Assembly: GCA_009700815.1 (NCBI GenBank)
Contig: WLLG01000002.1
Coordinates: 1 to 33,181 of the forward strand
Length of the DNA: 33,181 nucleotides
Origin: Actinomycetota bacterium
GTDB taxonomy: Bacteria; Actinomycetota; Acidimicrobiia; Acidimicrobiales; Microtrichaceae
Reading direction: 5' to 3'
Below are positions 611 through 7,484 of the stretch, piece by piece. Position numbers and translations under genes: made by a program. The notes under the pieces are model-generated. The model saw only the letters and a program-made list of their open reading frames with translations, was not told where the DNA came from and made no database searches. How positions within the stretch are numbered: position 1 is the first letter of the stretch; every line of letters begins with the position of its first letter.

Positions 611-1180
611 ATGAGCTCATCGCCCGAGGAGAAAACTCCCTCAAAACAGACTGCGGCGCAGGCTCGAGCAGAGTTCGAGGCCAACCGAGCAGCATCGGCC
701 GAGGCTCGGCGAGAGCGTATGGATGCAGCGTTCGGAGGGGGCATTCCTGGGCGGGCGATCGGTGTTATCTCTTGGTCCGCAACAGCTGTATTTGCAGTGG
801 TAACAGCTGCTGCAGTCATCAATCCGGAGCAATTTATTGGCGAGTTTTTTCTGGTGGCAGTTGGATTCTTTGCTGCGGGGAGCTTGTTGTTTGCTGCTGA
901 CATTGCACTTGCGGCGGCTCGAAGCCGAGATGACCTGATGGGCATTGGCGGGTTGTTCTTTCTATCTGGATGCGCACCCCGCTCGGTGCAGTTGAGTCTG
1001 CTGGGTTCGCTGATCGCGCAGCTCGTGATTGCCTGCAGTGGTGCAGCAGCTCGGCCATTCACCCCGCTTGCCTTTGGCATCTTGGTCCCAGTGCTGGGGT
1101 TATCGCTCTGTGGATTCTGGGCGGTTCGTTACGGTCTGTTCCCGGCTCAACAACCAGAGCCCGCTCGGCGTAGATCATGA
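611..1180 (+). CDS. Hypothetical multi-spanning membrane protein
   Basis: 189-aa ORF with four or five hydrophobic segments. Its stop overlaps the start of the next ORF (ATGA at 1177-1180). Confidence 0.65.
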   Translation: MSSSPEEKTPSKQTAAQARAEFEANRAASAEARRERMDAAFGGGIPGRAIGVISWSATAVFAVVTAAAVINPEQFIGEFFLVAVGFFAAGSLLFAADIALAAARSRDDLMGIGGLFFLSGCAPRSVQLSLLGSLIAQLVIACSGAAARPFTPLAFGILVPVLGLSLCGFWAVRYGLFPAQQPEPARRRS

Positions 1181-2358
1181 GAGTGTTGTTGTTTACTGGC
1201 AAGGGTGGAGTGGGAAAGACGACCACTGCAGCGGCAACCGCACTGCGAATAGCAGAGCAGGGCCAACGGGTCATTGTGACCTCGGCTGACCCCGCTCACT
1301 CGTTGTCCGACTCGATGGGACTCGAGCTTGGAACAGAACCCATTCAGATAGCTCCGAGGTGTTGGGCACAACAGCTAGATGCGCGTGAACGCCTAGAGGA
1401 GAACTGGGGAGAGATTCGCGTCTGGATGATGGAGATGCTTGATTGGGCTGGCGTCGAGGGCATCGAAGCCGAAGAACTCTCTGTTATTCCCGGCCTAGAC
1501 GAACTCTTTGCGCTGACCGAGGTCGAGTCCCTATGTGAATCAGGACTCTTCGACGTGGTGGTGGTGGACTGCGCTCCGACTGCAGAGACCATTCGCTTGT
1601 TGTCCTTGCCCGATATTTTGAGCTGGTACATGGAGCGGTTGTATCCGGCATCTCGACGGGTGAACCGACTGGTTTCCCCGTTGCTCTCTCGGTTGACCTC
1701 GCTCCCCGTTGCAGACGACGCAGTGTTCACCGCTGGTCAGCGTTTGTACGATTCGTTGGACTCGGTGCGGCGGATTCTTGCTGACCCAAAGATCACCTCT
1801 GCGCGACTGGTAATGAACCCCGAAGCAATGGTCATTGCAGAGGCGCGTCGGACCTACACGTATCTGTCGCTGTTTGGGTATCAAGTTGATGCCGTGATTG
1901 TGAATCGAATGTTGCCTGAACTGGCGCTTGACCCTTGGTTTGAAAAGTGGCGAGAGCAGCAGCAGATTCACTTGCAGACAATTGAGCAAAGCTTTGGTGC
2001 CTTGCCAGTATTTCGAGCAGAACACGTGGGTGGTGAGGTAGTCGGACTTGAGGCGCTAGCGGGCTTCGCTGATGGGCTCTGGGGGCAGGCTGACCCTTCG
2101 GCTCGGTTAGTCGCAGGTCGGCCACTTCGCGTAGACCGTCAGGAAGATGACTACGTGTTGTCCCTTGAGTTGCCGTTTGCGGATTCAGCCGATCTGGACC
2201 TGACTCGAGCGGGGGATGAGCTCTTTATTTCAATTGGGCCGCACCGTCGCAATCTGACTCTTCCGGACTCGTTGTCTCGCCGAGAGATCAGTTCGGCGGC
2301 GCTGCAGGATGGGTGCCTCGCAATCAAGTTTGTCGATGCAACTCAGCGATCGAACTGA
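1177..2358 (+). CDS. ArsA/GET3-family ATPase with C-terminal ArsA_HSP20-like domain
   Basis: Deviant Walker A FTGKGGVGKTT, SADPAHSLSDSMG and VVVDCAPTAETIRLLSLPDIL. The C-terminus LRVDRQEDDYVLSLELPFADSADLDLTRAGDELFISIG looks alpha-crystallin/HSP20-like. Confidence 0.9.
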   Translation: MRVLLFTGKGGVGKTTTAAATALRIAEQGQRVIVTSADPAHSLSDSMGLELGTEPIQIAPRCWAQQLDARERLEENWGEIRVWMMEMLDWAGVEGIEAEELSVIPGLDELFALTEVESLCESGLFDVVVVDCAPTAETIRLLSLPDILSWYMERLYPASRRVNRLVSPLLSRLTSLPVADDAVFTAGQRLYDSLDSVRRILADPKITSARLVMNPEAMVIAEARRTYTYLSLFGYQVDAVIVNRMLPELALDPWFEKWREQQQIHLQTIEQSFGALPVFRAEHVGGEVVGLEALAGFADGLWGQADPSARLVAGRPLRVDRQEDDYVLSLELPFADSADLDLTRAGDELFISIGPHRRNLTLPDSLSRREISSAALQDGCLAIKFVDATQRSN

Positions 2359-2410: not shown

Positions 2411-2872
2411 ATGGAAGATTCCTCGGGAGCAGATTCTCATTCGGCAGGTTCTCGTTCAACAGACTCTCGTTCAGCAGCCTCTCTTTCGACAGAGGGTGTG
2501 GAGCATGTGCAGCGCGCTGCTCGCGAAATGATCAAGGCTGCTCGATCCTTTTTGGATCTAGTTGAAGAAGTTGTGGATGACCCGGATCGAATTACCGAAG
2601 CCGCCGCTTCGGTGGCTGACATGGTGAAGGGCAGCTTTAGCAAGCCAGAGCAGCCATGGGAGCGCAGCGCCTGGTCGGAGACCGATTCAGAGACTGAGAC
2701 TGAGACTGAGACTGAGACTGAGACTGAGACTGAGACTGAGGCCGATCCAGAGCCTGATTCTCATGCTGAGTCCGGCTCGGCGCCCATGAAAGAGCCTGAA
2801 TCTCCGCCGCCTTCGAAGAGAACTCCGCCATCTTCACGAGTTCGCCGAATTGCAGTAGACGGCGCTAGTTGA
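2411..2872 (+). CDS. Small hypothetical protein with helical core and Ser-rich/Thr-Glu repeat tails
   Basis: Central segment VQRAAREMIKAARSFLDLVEEVVDDPDRITEAAASVADMVKG, flanked by 15-bp (N-terminal) and 6-bp (C-terminal) tandem repeats. Confidence 0.7.
   Translation: MEDSSGADSHSAGSRSTDSRSAASLSTEGVEHVQRAAREMIKAARSFLDLVEEVVDDPDRITEAAASVADMVKGSFSKPEQPWERSAWSETDSETETETETETETETETEADPEPDSHAESGSAPMKEPESPPPSKRTPPSSRVRRIAVDGAS
2432..2491 (+). repeat. 15-bp tandem repeat, 4 imperfect copies, in frame
   Basis: GATTCTCATTCGGCA/GGTTCTCGTTCAACA/GACTCTCGTTCAGCA/GCCTCTCTTTCGACA. Confidence 0.85.
2690..2740 (+). repeat. (GAGACT)8 hexanucleotide microsatellite, in frame (Thr-Glu repeat)
   Basis: Eight perfect GAGACT copies at 2690-2737, encoding (ET)n. 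Confidence 0.97.
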
Positions 2873-2948: not shown

Positions 2949-5177
2949 ATGAAACTCTTACGCATCGACCAAGTAGCTCCACAAGGAGCACCGATTCAGC
3001 TGCACCCTCAGCTGACGGTTTTGCGCGGTGCAACCCCAGAGATGCGGCGCAAACTAATCGATCTGTTTCGGGCTTTTTCTACCCCAGCGACCTTGGAGTG
3101 CGCAGGCATGATCGAGGTTGGCGGCGTGCAACTCGCCCTTGATCAGCTCACTCTGCAGGGACTCGACCTTGACCCCAAGGTAAACGCCGTCCTGCACTGG
3201 AACCCTGCTAGTCCCAGCACAACTAGCCCGAGCACTGCTGACCCGAGCACTACTAGCCCGAGTACAGCTAGCCCGAACGCTGCTAGCCCGAACGCTGCTA
3301 GCCCGAACTGGGCGAGCCCTGAATCCGAATCAACTTTGGCAAGAATTCAGCAGCAGGTAGAGGGGCACCGTGAGGAGCTTCGGCAAATAGTTCTCAGTCT
3401 GAGCAGCTGTGCTGAGCGAATGGAGCAGACTCGGACAAGCCTTGACGCCGCAGCGGCACTCGATCTTGATGGGTGTCAAACTCGGATGAGCATCCTCGAA
3501 TCACAACGCTTGGATCTCCGGGCGCAGTGGGAAGATGATCGTCAACTTCTGCAGAACCGCCGAGTGGAATTGCTCGAGGAGATCAGCCTGCTGAATGAGA
3601 AACTCGACATGGTTGCCTTGCTTGACTTGCAAGCAGTTTGTTCAGCTCGAGATGAGCTCAAGAGCTTGATGACAGCCAGCTTGGTTCCAGACCCGGTGGC
3701 ACAGGAACTAGCGCTTCGCATCTATAACTCGCTGCGAAATCTGCGTGAGATCACTGACTTGGCCGTGGCTGCAACTTCACGCCGAATCGAGGCCGAGCAG
3801 AACCTAGATGCAGCTCAAGACGATCTTGTGGCAAGTACCTCTGCGAGTTTGTCGCAGCTGCCAAATCAAGATGACTTAGAGCGACTCGAGGAGTTACGCA
3901 ATCAGATTTTCTCGTACCCGACCACATTCTCTTCTCCTCAAGTACCGAAGCCGCAATTCTCACTTCAGGAGCTTCGATTAGAGGAGTCAGCGTTGCTGCA
4001 GCGGCTCGGGTATGAGTCCTATAGCGCTTACGTTCGCGGGATCCCCTTTGTACAGACAGACCTAGAGCGTGCCTCTCGCCGTGAGCGGGCTGTCGAACGA
4101 GTAGTGCAAGTGCAACAGGAGCTGCAGGGTCTGATTGAAGGTTCGCCTGATCCGCAAGACCTTGAGCTTGCAGAGATGGAACTTTCGGTGATGTTGCAGA
4201 CCGCAGCAGAGCTGTTAGCAACGGGTGAGCCAGCAGAACTCAGCGGGCAATCCCCAGTCTCTGCAGTCGTGTTGTCAGCAGCTGCAGCGGACGCTCAGCG
4301 CGCTGACAATGTGCGAGAGGTCGTTGCACTTCTGCGGGAGCGCAAAGTCGCAGCCGTAGTCCTCGATAGCGGGGAAGTACTCCAAGCGGCACACAGGCTT
4401 CGTCAAGCAGTGGAGCGCGCGGCTGGCCCGGGTCTGAACGAGACCTGGCTCCATGCCGAGAGCTCTACTGAGAGTCCAGAGGACCTTCTACGTGGGGTCG
4501 ATCTTTGGTTGGCAGTGTTTCAGGATCCCGCTGACTGGGTCGCGAGCACCCAATCCCAGATCAACGACCTCCGGGCACAGGTTTCTGCAGCAGAGGCCGA
4601 GGAATTTCACCAGGGCGACCTGAGCGAGTGGGCGCAGGTTGAAGCAGAGTTAGACCTGGTCATGGACCAGATGATTGAGGCTCAGAATCGGGTCGCTCAA
4701 CATGATCAGGCCATGATGCAGTTGGCTGCTTTGCGAGACCAAGAGTTGCAGCTGAGGAGCGAAGAGCGCGAGCTGCTGACGGTTTTGGCTCAGGAAGAAA
4801 CACAAGTGCAGCAGGCCCAACTCCAGGCCCAACTTCAGGCACAACTTCAGGTACCGGCGCTGCAAGTGCCGGCATCGAATCAGGTACTGCCCCCAACCTA
4901 TCGATCAGGTTCTAGCGGGGTTCATCAGCGATCAGCCGCTGATGATTGCGAATGGGCCTTGATTGAACGGGTAGCTCAGCAGCGGGCGATCTCATTCTTG
5001 GGTTCTGTCCCGCTCCTCATCGACTCCCTTCCGAGTGATCCGCTCGCACAGCACAAAGTGATTGAGCGTGCGCGCGAGATGTCGGCTGTCGTGCAAGTGG
5101 TCATTCTGAGCGAAAATCAGTGGTTGTTTGAGCAGGCGCAGTCAGGAAACTTCGCAGCCTCTGCAATCCAGTTCTAG
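2949..5177 (+). CDS. Coiled-coil Rad50/SMC-like protein with degenerate ATPase head (no Walker A)
   Basis: N-terminus LHPQLTVLRGATPEMRRKLIDLFRAF aligns by eye with the SMC/RecF beta-strand/P-loop region but lacks GxxGxGKS. A long Q/E/L-rich coiled coil follows. The C-terminal SVPLLIDSLPSDPLAQHKVIERAREMSAVVQVVILSENQWLFEQA resembles the Walker B/D-loop/H-loop region. Confidence 0.7.
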   Translation: MKLLRIDQVAPQGAPIQLHPQLTVLRGATPEMRRKLIDLFRAFSTPATLECAGMIEVGGVQLALDQLTLQGLDLDPKVNAVLHWNPASPSTTSPSTADPSTTSPSTASPNAASPNAASPNWASPESESTLARIQQQVEGHREELRQIVLSLSSCAERMEQTRTSLDAAAALDLDGCQTRMSILESQRLDLRAQWEDDRQLLQNRRVELLEEISLLNEKLDMVALLDLQAVCSARDELKSLMTASLVPDPVAQELALRIYNSLRNLREITDLAVAATSRRIEAEQNLDAAQDDLVASTSASLSQLPNQDDLERLEELRNQIFSYPTTFSSPQVPKPQFSLQELRLEESALLQRLGYESYSAYVRGIPFVQTDLERASRRERAVERVVQVQQELQGLIEGSPDPQDLELAEMELSVMLQTAAELLATGEPAELSGQSPVSAVVLSAAAADAQRADNVREVVALLRERKVAAVVLDSGEVLQAAHRLRQAVERAAGPGLNETWLHAESSTESPEDLLRGVDLWLAVFQDPADWVASTQSQINDLRAQVSAAEAEEFHQGDLSEWAQVEAELDLVMDQMIEAQNRVAQHDQAMMQLAALRDQELQLRSEERELLTVLAQEETQVQQAQLQAQLQAQLQVPALQVPASNQVLPPTYRSGSSGVHQRSAADDCEWALIERVAQQRAISFLGSVPLLIDSLPSDPLAQHKVIERAREMSAVVQVVILSENQWLFEQAQSGNFAASAIQF
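3210..3314 (+). repeat. 15-bp tandem repeat, 7 copies, encoding (SP-S/N-T/A-x)n
   Basis: Units such as AGCCCGAGCACTGCT and AGCCCGAACGCTGCT; two adjacent copies (3270-3299) are identical. Confidence 0.95.
4812..4847 (+). repeat. 12-bp tandem repeat, 3 copies, encoding (QAQL)n
   Basis: CAGGCCCAACTC/CAGGCCCAACTT/CAGGCACAACTT. Confidence 0.9.
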
Positions 5178-5227: not shown

Positions 5228-6277
5228 GTGATCCACTTCAACGCAATGGTTTCGGATCAGCAAACATCACATGTCGTAGGGGTTGACGTCGGAGGCACGA
5301 AAACGCTTGCGGCGCGTGTCCTCGTGCCGCAAGAGGTCCAAGAACAGGCTGTGCCTTCTGTGGCCTCTCAGACGGTGCAGGCCGAGGCGCCATCGGTGCA
5401 GGATCGTGAACTCGTCGGGTCATCTTCTCATGAGGAGGCCGTGCTCACTCAGATTGAGCATGCTGTCGCCGCGCTGTTTGACCGCTCCGAGCGGCGAGTT
5501 GATGCAATCGGCGTAGGTCTCGCCGGGTTCATTGGCTTAGACGGCATTGCGCGCTCGGCACCCAATGCCCCCGGACTCATAGGTGTTGACGTCGCAGCTG
5601 CTCTGACTACGCGCTTTGGGGTTCCGGTAGTAATCGACAACGATGCCAATTGCGTAGCCGTGGCAGCGCAGTCCATGTTTGGGACTCCCAGTTCTTCGAT
5701 TCTGGCCGTCACTCTTGGAACGGGCATTGGAGGCGGAATCGTCCTCGACGGCGAGCTCTACCGGGGGGCCCACGGGTTTGCAGGCGAGCCGGGGCATATG
5801 GTGATCAATCCGTTAGGCCCCGAGTGCCCCTGTGGTCAACGAGGTTGTTGGGAGCGCTATGCCTCTGGTTCGGGGTTGGGCTGGCTCGGCCGAACTGCCG
5901 CCGCAAGTGGTCAAGCAGAGGCTGTTTTGGCTCGCGCCGGTTCCGTAGATCGCATTGACGGCGAGATTGTTACTGAGCTTATGGAGCAGGGCGAGGCCGG
6001 CGCAGTCGGGATCTTTACTGAGTTCGCCGGGTATGTCGCCCTCGGTCTAGCGAATCTCATGCTGCTGTTCGACCCCAAAGTAATTGTGATCGGTGGAGGC
6101 CTCGCTGCAGTGGGTGAGCAACTCACTGCTCTGGTTCAAGCTGATCTACTTCAGCGGTTTCCTGCAGCCTCAAGGGATCGAGATGTGCAGATTCTCTCAG
6201 CGCCACTCGGCCCCGAGGCGGGGGCGCTCGGAGCGGCGCTCCTCGCTGCGAAGATGCTTGGCCGCTCAGGTTCCTAG
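5228..6277 (+). CDS. ROK-family sugar kinase, glucokinase-like
   Basis: VGVDVGGTKTLAARV phosphate loop, VVIDNDANC, TLGTGIGGGIV and the ROK zinc motif CPCGQRGCWE. The start could be the ATG at 5246. Confidence 0.9.
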   Translation: MIHFNAMVSDQQTSHVVGVDVGGTKTLAARVLVPQEVQEQAVPSVASQTVQAEAPSVQDRELVGSSSHEEAVLTQIEHAVAALFDRSERRVDAIGVGLAGFIGLDGIARSAPNAPGLIGVDVAAALTTRFGVPVVIDNDANCVAVAAQSMFGTPSSSILAVTLGTGIGGGIVLDGELYRGAHGFAGEPGHMVINPLGPECPCGQRGCWERYASGSGLGWLGRTAAASGQAEAVLARAGSVDRIDGEIVTELMEQGEAGAVGIFTEFAGYVALGLANLMLLFDPKVIVIGGGLAAVGEQLTALVQADLLQRFPAASRDRDVQILSAPLGPEAGALGAALLAAKMLGRSGS

Positions 6278-6308: not shown

Positions 6309-7484
6309 ATGGAGTTCCGTCGAATTACTTCGCTTCCCCCCTATGTCTTCACCATCATTGATTCGCTCAAGGTCGCCGCTCGTCGCGATGGGGCGGACAT
6401 TATTGACCTTGGCTTTGGCAACCCAGATCTTCCCTCACCTCCGATTGCAGTAGAGAAGCTCTGCGAAGCAGCGCAGAACGAAAAAAACCATCGGTACTCG
6501 GCATCTCGCGGCATCCCGAAACTAAGACAGGCTGCAGCTAGCTATTACAAGCATCGTTTCGATGTTGACATTGATCCTGATACCGAAGTCATCACCACGA
6601 TTGGCGCAAAGGAAGGGTTCAGTCACCTGATGTGGGTGCTACTCGAACACGGTGATGCCGCCTTGGTACCTTCGCCGAGCTATCCGATTCACATCTTTGG
6701 CCCGTTGTTCGCTGGTGCGAACGTTCGAGAGATCCCGTTGGGCACCGGAGACGAATTCTTTGCGAACATGGTCGAGGCTTGGGAGTACTCCTACCCGCGG
6801 CCACGAGTCATCGTGTTGTCCTTTCCGCATAACCCCACCACTACCTGTGTCGACCTTGCGTTCATGCAGCGTGTTGTTGACTTTGCCCGTGAACGAGACG
6901 TCATTTTGGTTCACGATAACGCCTATGCCGACTTGGGATTCGATGGGTATCGACCCCCATCCATTTTGCAGGCAGAGGGTGCAAAGGAAGTAGCGGTGGA
7001 GTTGTACTCCATGACGAAGTCGTTCTCTATGGCCGGTTGGCGCATGGCGTTCATGTTGGGTAATCCGCAGGTCATAGCGGCTCTTGCCAAGCTCAAGTCC
7101 TATCTGGATTATGGGACCTTTCAACCGATTCAGATTGCTGCCACCGTCACACTTAACGAGATGCAGGACTATCCCGTCGAGGTCAACCAGATCTATCAGG
7201 TGCGCCGTGATGCTCTGTGTTCTGGCCTGTCTCGCATCGGATGGCAGATGGAACCCCCCATGGGAACCATGTTTGCTTGGGCGCCGATTCCTGAGCCGTA
7301 CCTAGAGATGGGTTCGGTGGAGTTCTGTTCCTTCTTGGTACGCGAAGCAGGCGTGGCGCTGTCCCCCGGAGTGGGGTTTGGGCCCGGCGGTGAAGGCAAT
7401 GTCCGCTTCGCCCTGATCGAAAATGAACAGCGAATCAATCAGGCTGTGCGCAACCTGAAGCGGGCCCTGCCAAAACTCGGCTAG
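6309..7484 (+). CDS. Class I/II PLP aminotransferase (AlaC/DapL-like)
   Basis: IDLGFGNPDLPSPP, FPHNPTTTCVD, VHDNAYADLGFDGY, and the PLP-lysine motif SMTKSFSMAGWRMAF. Confidence 0.9.
   Translation: MEFRRITSLPPYVFTIIDSLKVAARRDGADIIDLGFGNPDLPSPPIAVEKLCEAAQNEKNHRYSASRGIPKLRQAAASYYKHRFDVDIDPDTEVITTIGAKEGFSHLMWVLLEHGDAALVPSPSYPIHIFGPLFAGANVREIPLGTGDEFFANMVEAWEYSYPRPRVIVLSFPHNPTTTCVDLAFMQRVVDFARERDVILVHDNAYADLGFDGYRPPSILQAEGAKEVAVELYSMTKSFSMAGWRMAFMLGNPQVIAALAKLKSYLDYGTFQPIQIAATVTLNEMQDYPVEVNQIYQVRRDALCSGLSRIGWQMEPPMGTMFAWAPIPEPYLEMGSVEFCSFLVREAGVALSPGVGFGPGGEGNVRFALIENEQRINQAVRNLKRALPKLG

Follow-up and report, generated by a model that had tools for sequence, protein, structure and literature searches.

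ATP-driven engagement is the defining property of SMC and Rad50 heads. Here we describe a class-wide lineage in which the head fold is under purifying selection, the P-loop is gone and one clade is even without the arms, and this raises the question of what use an SMC head is without ATP. The question was met at an ORF in a stretch of 33,181 nucleotides (contig WLLG01000002.1, positions 1 to 33,181, assembly GCA_009700815.1, Microtrichaceae), referred to below as the window. An initial annotation, made from the letters of the window, had read the product as a pseudo-ATPase with coiled-coil arms.

The gene, its neighbourhood and its selection

The ORF was confirmed at its annotated position (Table 1). 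It occurs in one copy in its own genome (G000, contig C112) and is intact in five congeners. Pfam and NCBIfam scans of the window protein gave nothing convincing above cut-off, and no description of its family, termed family A here, was found in open-licence papers. Family A and the paralogous family B are covered by no Pfam or NCBIfam model, and a family without such an entry is of use for annotation. A narrow-profile scan of named genomes (four loci) placed the named relatives of family A in the Microthrixaceae and in other MAGs of Acidimicrobiia and Actinomycetes. Family A is spread across one actinobacterial class.

Table 1. Features of the window and of the 742-aa protein (residue numbers refer to this protein).
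Feature	Position	Strand	Remarks
ArsA/Get3-type ATPase, C-terminal HSP20-like domain	1177..2358	+	PF02374 E 6e-83, PF17886 E 3e-23
Small acidic protein, 153 aa	2411..2872	+	conserved neighbour without Pfam family
SMC/Rad50-like putative pseudo-ATPase ORF, family A, 742 aa	2949..5177	+	ATG start; AF2 mean pLDDT 81.8, pTM 0.38
Head N-lobe, residues 1-86	2949..3206	+	predicted strands E2-6, E22-26, helix H30-41, strands E53-57, E60-64; AF2 pLDDT mostly about 87-95
Missing Walker A site, G27-ATPEM-R33-R34	3027..3050	+	Arg in place of the lysine; second glycine and Ser/Thr both absent; helix predicted from residue 30
Pro/Ser/Thr-rich linker, residues 87-123	3207..3317	+	low confidence, pLDDT under 50; dN/dS 0.5-0.9
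Coiled-coil arms, residues 124-634	3318..4850	+	H125-163, H168-224, H249-301, H368-398, H402-425, H558-633 (AF2)
Head C-lobe, residues 661-742	4929..5174	+	AF2, Foldseek, profile-profile comparison
ABC signature position, RSAA for LSxG, residues 661-664	4929..4940	+	from alignment to canonical L181-L189
Degenerate Walker B, PLLIDS, residues 688-693	5010..5027	+	D692 present; no second acidic residue in the window's genus
H-loop/switch region, QVVILSEN, residues 716-723	5094..5117	+	Gln716 equivalent invariant in 59/59
ROK-family sugar kinase	5228..6277	+	
Aminotransferase	6309-7484		co-directional with the SMC-like gene

The gene belongs to a co-directional run which consists of a QueG-like gene, a 189-aa ORF, the ArsA/Get3-type ATPase, the 153-aa acidic protein, the SMC-like gene, the ROK kinase and the aminotransferase. 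From the ArsA gene onward, neighbouring genes are separated by gaps of roughly 53, 76, 50 and 31 bp. The QueG-like gene is truncated in the window and was identified from its full-length copy (L031). The initial annotation had placed the SMC-like gene directly between the ArsA-type ATPase and the ROK kinase, which is right for the ROK side, but on the ArsA side the small acidic ORF intervenes. A perfect GAGACT hexanucleotide repeat of 8.5 copies (window 2690-2740) is located inside the gene of the small acidic protein and gives rise to an ETETET run.

Across the order, many families share a fixed arrangement in which the SMC-like gene lies in a slot between the small acidic protein and ROK, with ArsA at the front. 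This arrangement and the first three of the gaps given above would fit an accessory role: the small acidic and SMC-like proteins would act as scaffold or client adaptor of the ArsA/Get3-type ATPase, which would itself provide the ATP cycle. However, in L202, L203, L207 and L208 the genes for ArsA, the small protein and ROK are present without the SMC-like gene, and the small protein gene abuts ROK. In other genomes lacking the SMC-like gene, the slot before ROK is taken by a gene of the bacterial eRF1-like release factor family 10 (baeRF10; L209:1891-3012 and L211:1986-3098, in L212 and L213 by sequence). Furthermore, no ArsA gene was detected in the 6-8 kb read around members from other orders of the class. 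Most of these genomes are MAGs, and few candidates per genome are scored in the search; all absence counts are therefore to be read as lower bounds on presence. Since the slot is empty or filled by baeRF10 in some genomes, the gene is accessory and no obligate part of an ArsA machine. An obligate ArsA subunit is thereby weakened, and the accessory role at ArsA is regarded as quite improbable. Synteny with ArsA, which the initial annotation had proposed to check, is thus conserved within the order but not obligatory. In the genome G199, two tandem Walker-A-less SMC-like genes (L123:2884-4365 and L123:4435-5772) are located between ArsA and ROK.

Across six congeners, dN/dS of the gene ranges from 0.12 to 0.22, and a pseudogene is ruled out by these values. 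Measured against the most distant congener, dN is lowest in the two lobes (0.11-0.13), while the arms and the middle part reach 0.22-0.29. The Pro/Ser/Thr-rich linker is nearly free to change. It is encoded by a 15-bp tandem repeat of 6.8 copies (window 3205-3306), the length of which differs between congeners.

A predicted SMC-type head without Walker A

For prediction of the fold we applied AlphaFold2 with an input alignment of 36 family members. In the resulting model, the N-lobe and the C-lobe mostly exceed a pLDDT of 80; the full-length pTM is low, probably because the arms are flexible. Foldseek against the PDB returned Rad50 (7zr1) as top match with a probability of 1.00 and an E-value of 2e-7, with Smc5/6 and MukB ranking next. 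Because the arms fail to superpose, TM-scores stay low, at 0.18 for 7zr1. Three genomes of one genus carry coiled-coil-free members of 190-191 aa at the same locus (L050:5670-6242, L101:5883-6452 and L102:5607-6179), in which the N-lobe joins the C-lobe directly. These genomes keep the two lobes without arms, therefore the head itself is under selection there. A 191-aa homologue of this type was modelled with a pLDDT of 89 and a pTM of 0.87. Its best PDB match is the SMC head of Thermotoga maritima (1e69, TM 0.56, probability 1.00), and the remaining matches listed are almost all ABC ATPases. The short protein is a stronger test of the fold than the full-length model. When the PDB was searched by sequence, both the single protein and two profiles gave coiled-coil or chance matches only, which neither support nor refute the fold.

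An ABC-type head built of N- and C-terminal lobes was thus recovered by AlphaFold, Foldseek and profile-profile comparison, in line with what the initial annotation had expected from structure prediction of the termini. Long antiparallel arms between the lobes are found in the window protein and are absent from the three short members. The family profile also reaches long ORFs with a matching C-terminal region in Acidimicrobiia and other actinobacterial classes (L181-L189); those of them covered by Pfam scans are AAA_27/SMC_N proteins. In the profile-profile comparison, the C-lobe aligns with AAA_27/YhaN-type SMC-like ATPases at 96.7% probability (E 3.7e-10). The alignment spans Walker B, D-loop and H-loop, a layout which had already been suggested for the C-terminus. 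The mini-heads alone reach 90.8% (E 1.2e-6). This comparison aligned the C-lobe only; for the N-lobe, the likely kinship with P-loop ATPases is drawn from its structure and position.

Residues 27-34 of the window protein read GATPEMRR where GxxxxGK[ST] is expected. The absence of Walker A had therefore been described correctly, as had the absence of a clear LSGGQ signature. The degenerate Walker B does not satisfy the consensus hhhhD[DE]. The pair DS, noted earlier in place of two acidic residues, is correct for the window but specific for its genus, whereas among 59 members of the wider family DD occurs in 17, DE in 6 and ED in 3, with the rest degraded. These 59 are the non-redundant members with both lobes, and the count takes in family B and class-level members. 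None of them contains G-x4-GK[ST], in contrast to 9 of 9 canonical relatives found with the same profile (L181-L189), where GPNEAGK[ST] or a similar motif is intact. The loss of Walker A is thus family-wide and exceeds what chance would give, and its extent had been left as a question by the initial annotation; the local pseudogene that it had named as the opposing case is excluded by the dN/dS values together with the lack of any homologue with an intact P-loop. A local peculiarity of the window's genome is likewise ruled out, the gene being intact in congeners and Walker A absent in 59/59.

The first glycine of Walker A is kept in 50 of the 59 members, and the lysine position is occupied by Arg in 35 and by Lys in one. 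No member shows LSxG at the signature position. All 59 have the switch-region Gln, and 55 have a downstream Trp. Where the lysine position carries a basic residue (Arg, Lys or His), the Walker B acid is kept in 29 members and lost in 9, compared to 7 and 14 for other residues (Fisher p 0.002, with members treated as independent and relatedness uncorrected). Such an association is what an internal salt bridge between the Arg and the Walker B acid would predict. The frequent Arg, which is invariant in the family B alignment, and the pair DD or DE in 23 of 59 members could also be read as signs of an active ATPase whose nucleotide site is non-canonical, with Arg replacing the P-loop Lys. This is highly improbable: no member retains the P-loop G-K-[ST], so that the Mg-binding Ser/Thr is missing as well, the predicted helix extends into the loop and LSxG is absent. 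When a tree was built from the two lobes, a split with a UFBoot of 100 set every Walker-A-less head apart from every canonical one. This supports a putative single loss of Walker A but does not prove it, because the alignment is short and takes in the P-loop columns.

We propose that a Rad50/SMC-type ancestor lost nucleotide binding. According to prediction and homology, the N- and C-terminal lobes still form an ABC-type head, from which two helical arms exit and fold back. Judged from the sequence, the P-loop is replaced by a run in which Arg mostly stands for the lysine and the predicted helix starts ahead of this position, and the signature is lost, so that most likely no ATP engagement cycle takes place. 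The head may have been retained as a binding module that works without nucleotide, with arms that may set reach and oligomerisation or act as a spacer; the protein would then be a scaffold or a regulatory subunit. Taken together, a nucleotide-independent SMC-type head and arm, serving as scaffold or regulator, is probably the correct description. On the other hand, ATP could bind without a canonical P-loop, and the full-length model has a pTM of 0.38 and low TM-scores owing to the arms. In addition, the Walker B pair DD or DE is kept in many members, although a head with a purely structural function would not need it except in some new role. The earlier reading as a pseudo-ATPase with coiled-coil arms is largely supported by the Foldseek matches to Rad50 and SMC and by the missing P-loop (0/59), where the term pseudo-ATPase is to be taken as an interpretation.

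Possible partners in the same cell

Such a scaffold might pair with another copy of itself, with the putative pseudo-ATPase of family B and its predicted membrane hairpin, with the cell's intact SMC or YhaN-type ATPase, or with the ArsA ATPase of the operon. The family B paralogue in the window's genome has 432 aa (L086:4114-5409, contig C79). Members of this family (L086, L117 and L222-L239) comprise about 430-480 aa and keep a Walker B of the form DEPF or DDPF, while Walker A is absent in all members examined. In an alignment of 14 members, the two residues at the Walker A glycine and lysine sites, Gly28 and Arg34, do not vary. A crude hydropathy scan showed one or more strongly hydrophobic stretches, frequently forming a hairpin, in every member examined. 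In L086 and L117 the gene is located beside a GNAT acetyltransferase and a YajQ-like gene.

Family B was found in 68 of the 298 genomes sampled in the order, and 36 of the 45 genomes scored positive for family A also carry B (Fisher p 2e-19, with genomes treated as independent and relatedness uncorrected). Both families might represent the two halves of one nucleotide-free SMC-like complex, with B as membrane anchor through its predicted hairpin and A as the source of the long arms. A fixed Arg-Asp contact would then replace ATP in holding the heads. We consider this quite unlikely. If true, the complex would be an SMC architecture turned into a permanent tether.

The window's genome also encodes an intact SMC of 1164 aa (GPNGSGKS) and, on contig C90, an intact YhaN-type ATPase of 975 aa (L240:1219-4143; GSNEAGKS) with a predicted membrane hairpin, the gene of which directly follows a metallophosphatase gene (L240:2-1219). 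The dead head could pair in trans with the head of one of these two ATPases and block or tune its cycle. Such regulation was proposed for SMCL-1 of Caenorhabditis elegans (PMC5373644), whose layout is similar to that of the arm-less 191-aa members. However, synteny with SMC or the YhaN-type ATPase is absent, the signature motif required for standard head engagement is also lost, and the pattern of SMCL-1 is nearly the reverse, with Walker A kept and the other motifs lost. Pairing in trans is thus unlikely.

Comparison with known systems

A role in defence was considered with regard to Lamassu LmuB and Wadjet JetC and rejected, as the window protein has no PADLOC match and no partner genes were found. 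The weak PADLOC matches of L088 and L045 to LmuB are confined to the coiled coil.

The nucleotide-independent head and arm proposed here can be compared with four groups of proteins. The AAA_27/YhaN-type ATPases (PF13514; L181, L182 and L184) share with family A the C-lobe alignment through Walker B, D-loop and H-loop as well as the combination of a head with a long coiled coil. In L182 and L184 the ending ..QEDxVxxWA.. is also common with family A. In contrast to family A, they keep GPNEAGK[ST] and LSxGT. AAA_27 was matched neither in the Pfam scan of the window protein nor among the families listed for 22 A1 members. Rad50/SbcC contains the best structural match of the window model (7zr1) and shows the same order of N-lobe, antiparallel arms and C-lobe. 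The window protein differs by the absence of Walker A, of the signature, of a detected zinc hook (no CxxC anywhere in the 742-aa sequence) and of an adjacent Mre11/SbcD gene. SMC provides the best match of the 191-aa member with the T. maritima head. The window protein is distinguished from it by the missing Walker A and signature and by the lack of a hinge recognised by Pfam (no PF06470 match), whereas the genome encodes a separate intact SMC in which PF06470 is present.

SMCL-1 of C. elegans is an SMC head thought to be catalytically dead and is without arms and hinge; it keeps Walker A but has lost the Walker B Glu and the signature (PMC5373644). A putatively dead head and the arm-less, hinge-less layout are also seen in the 191-aa members. 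In family A, however, it is Walker A that was lost, while many members keep the Walker B acids, and the origins of the two are unrelated. The 191-aa protein offers a small natural test object for an ATP-free SMC head.
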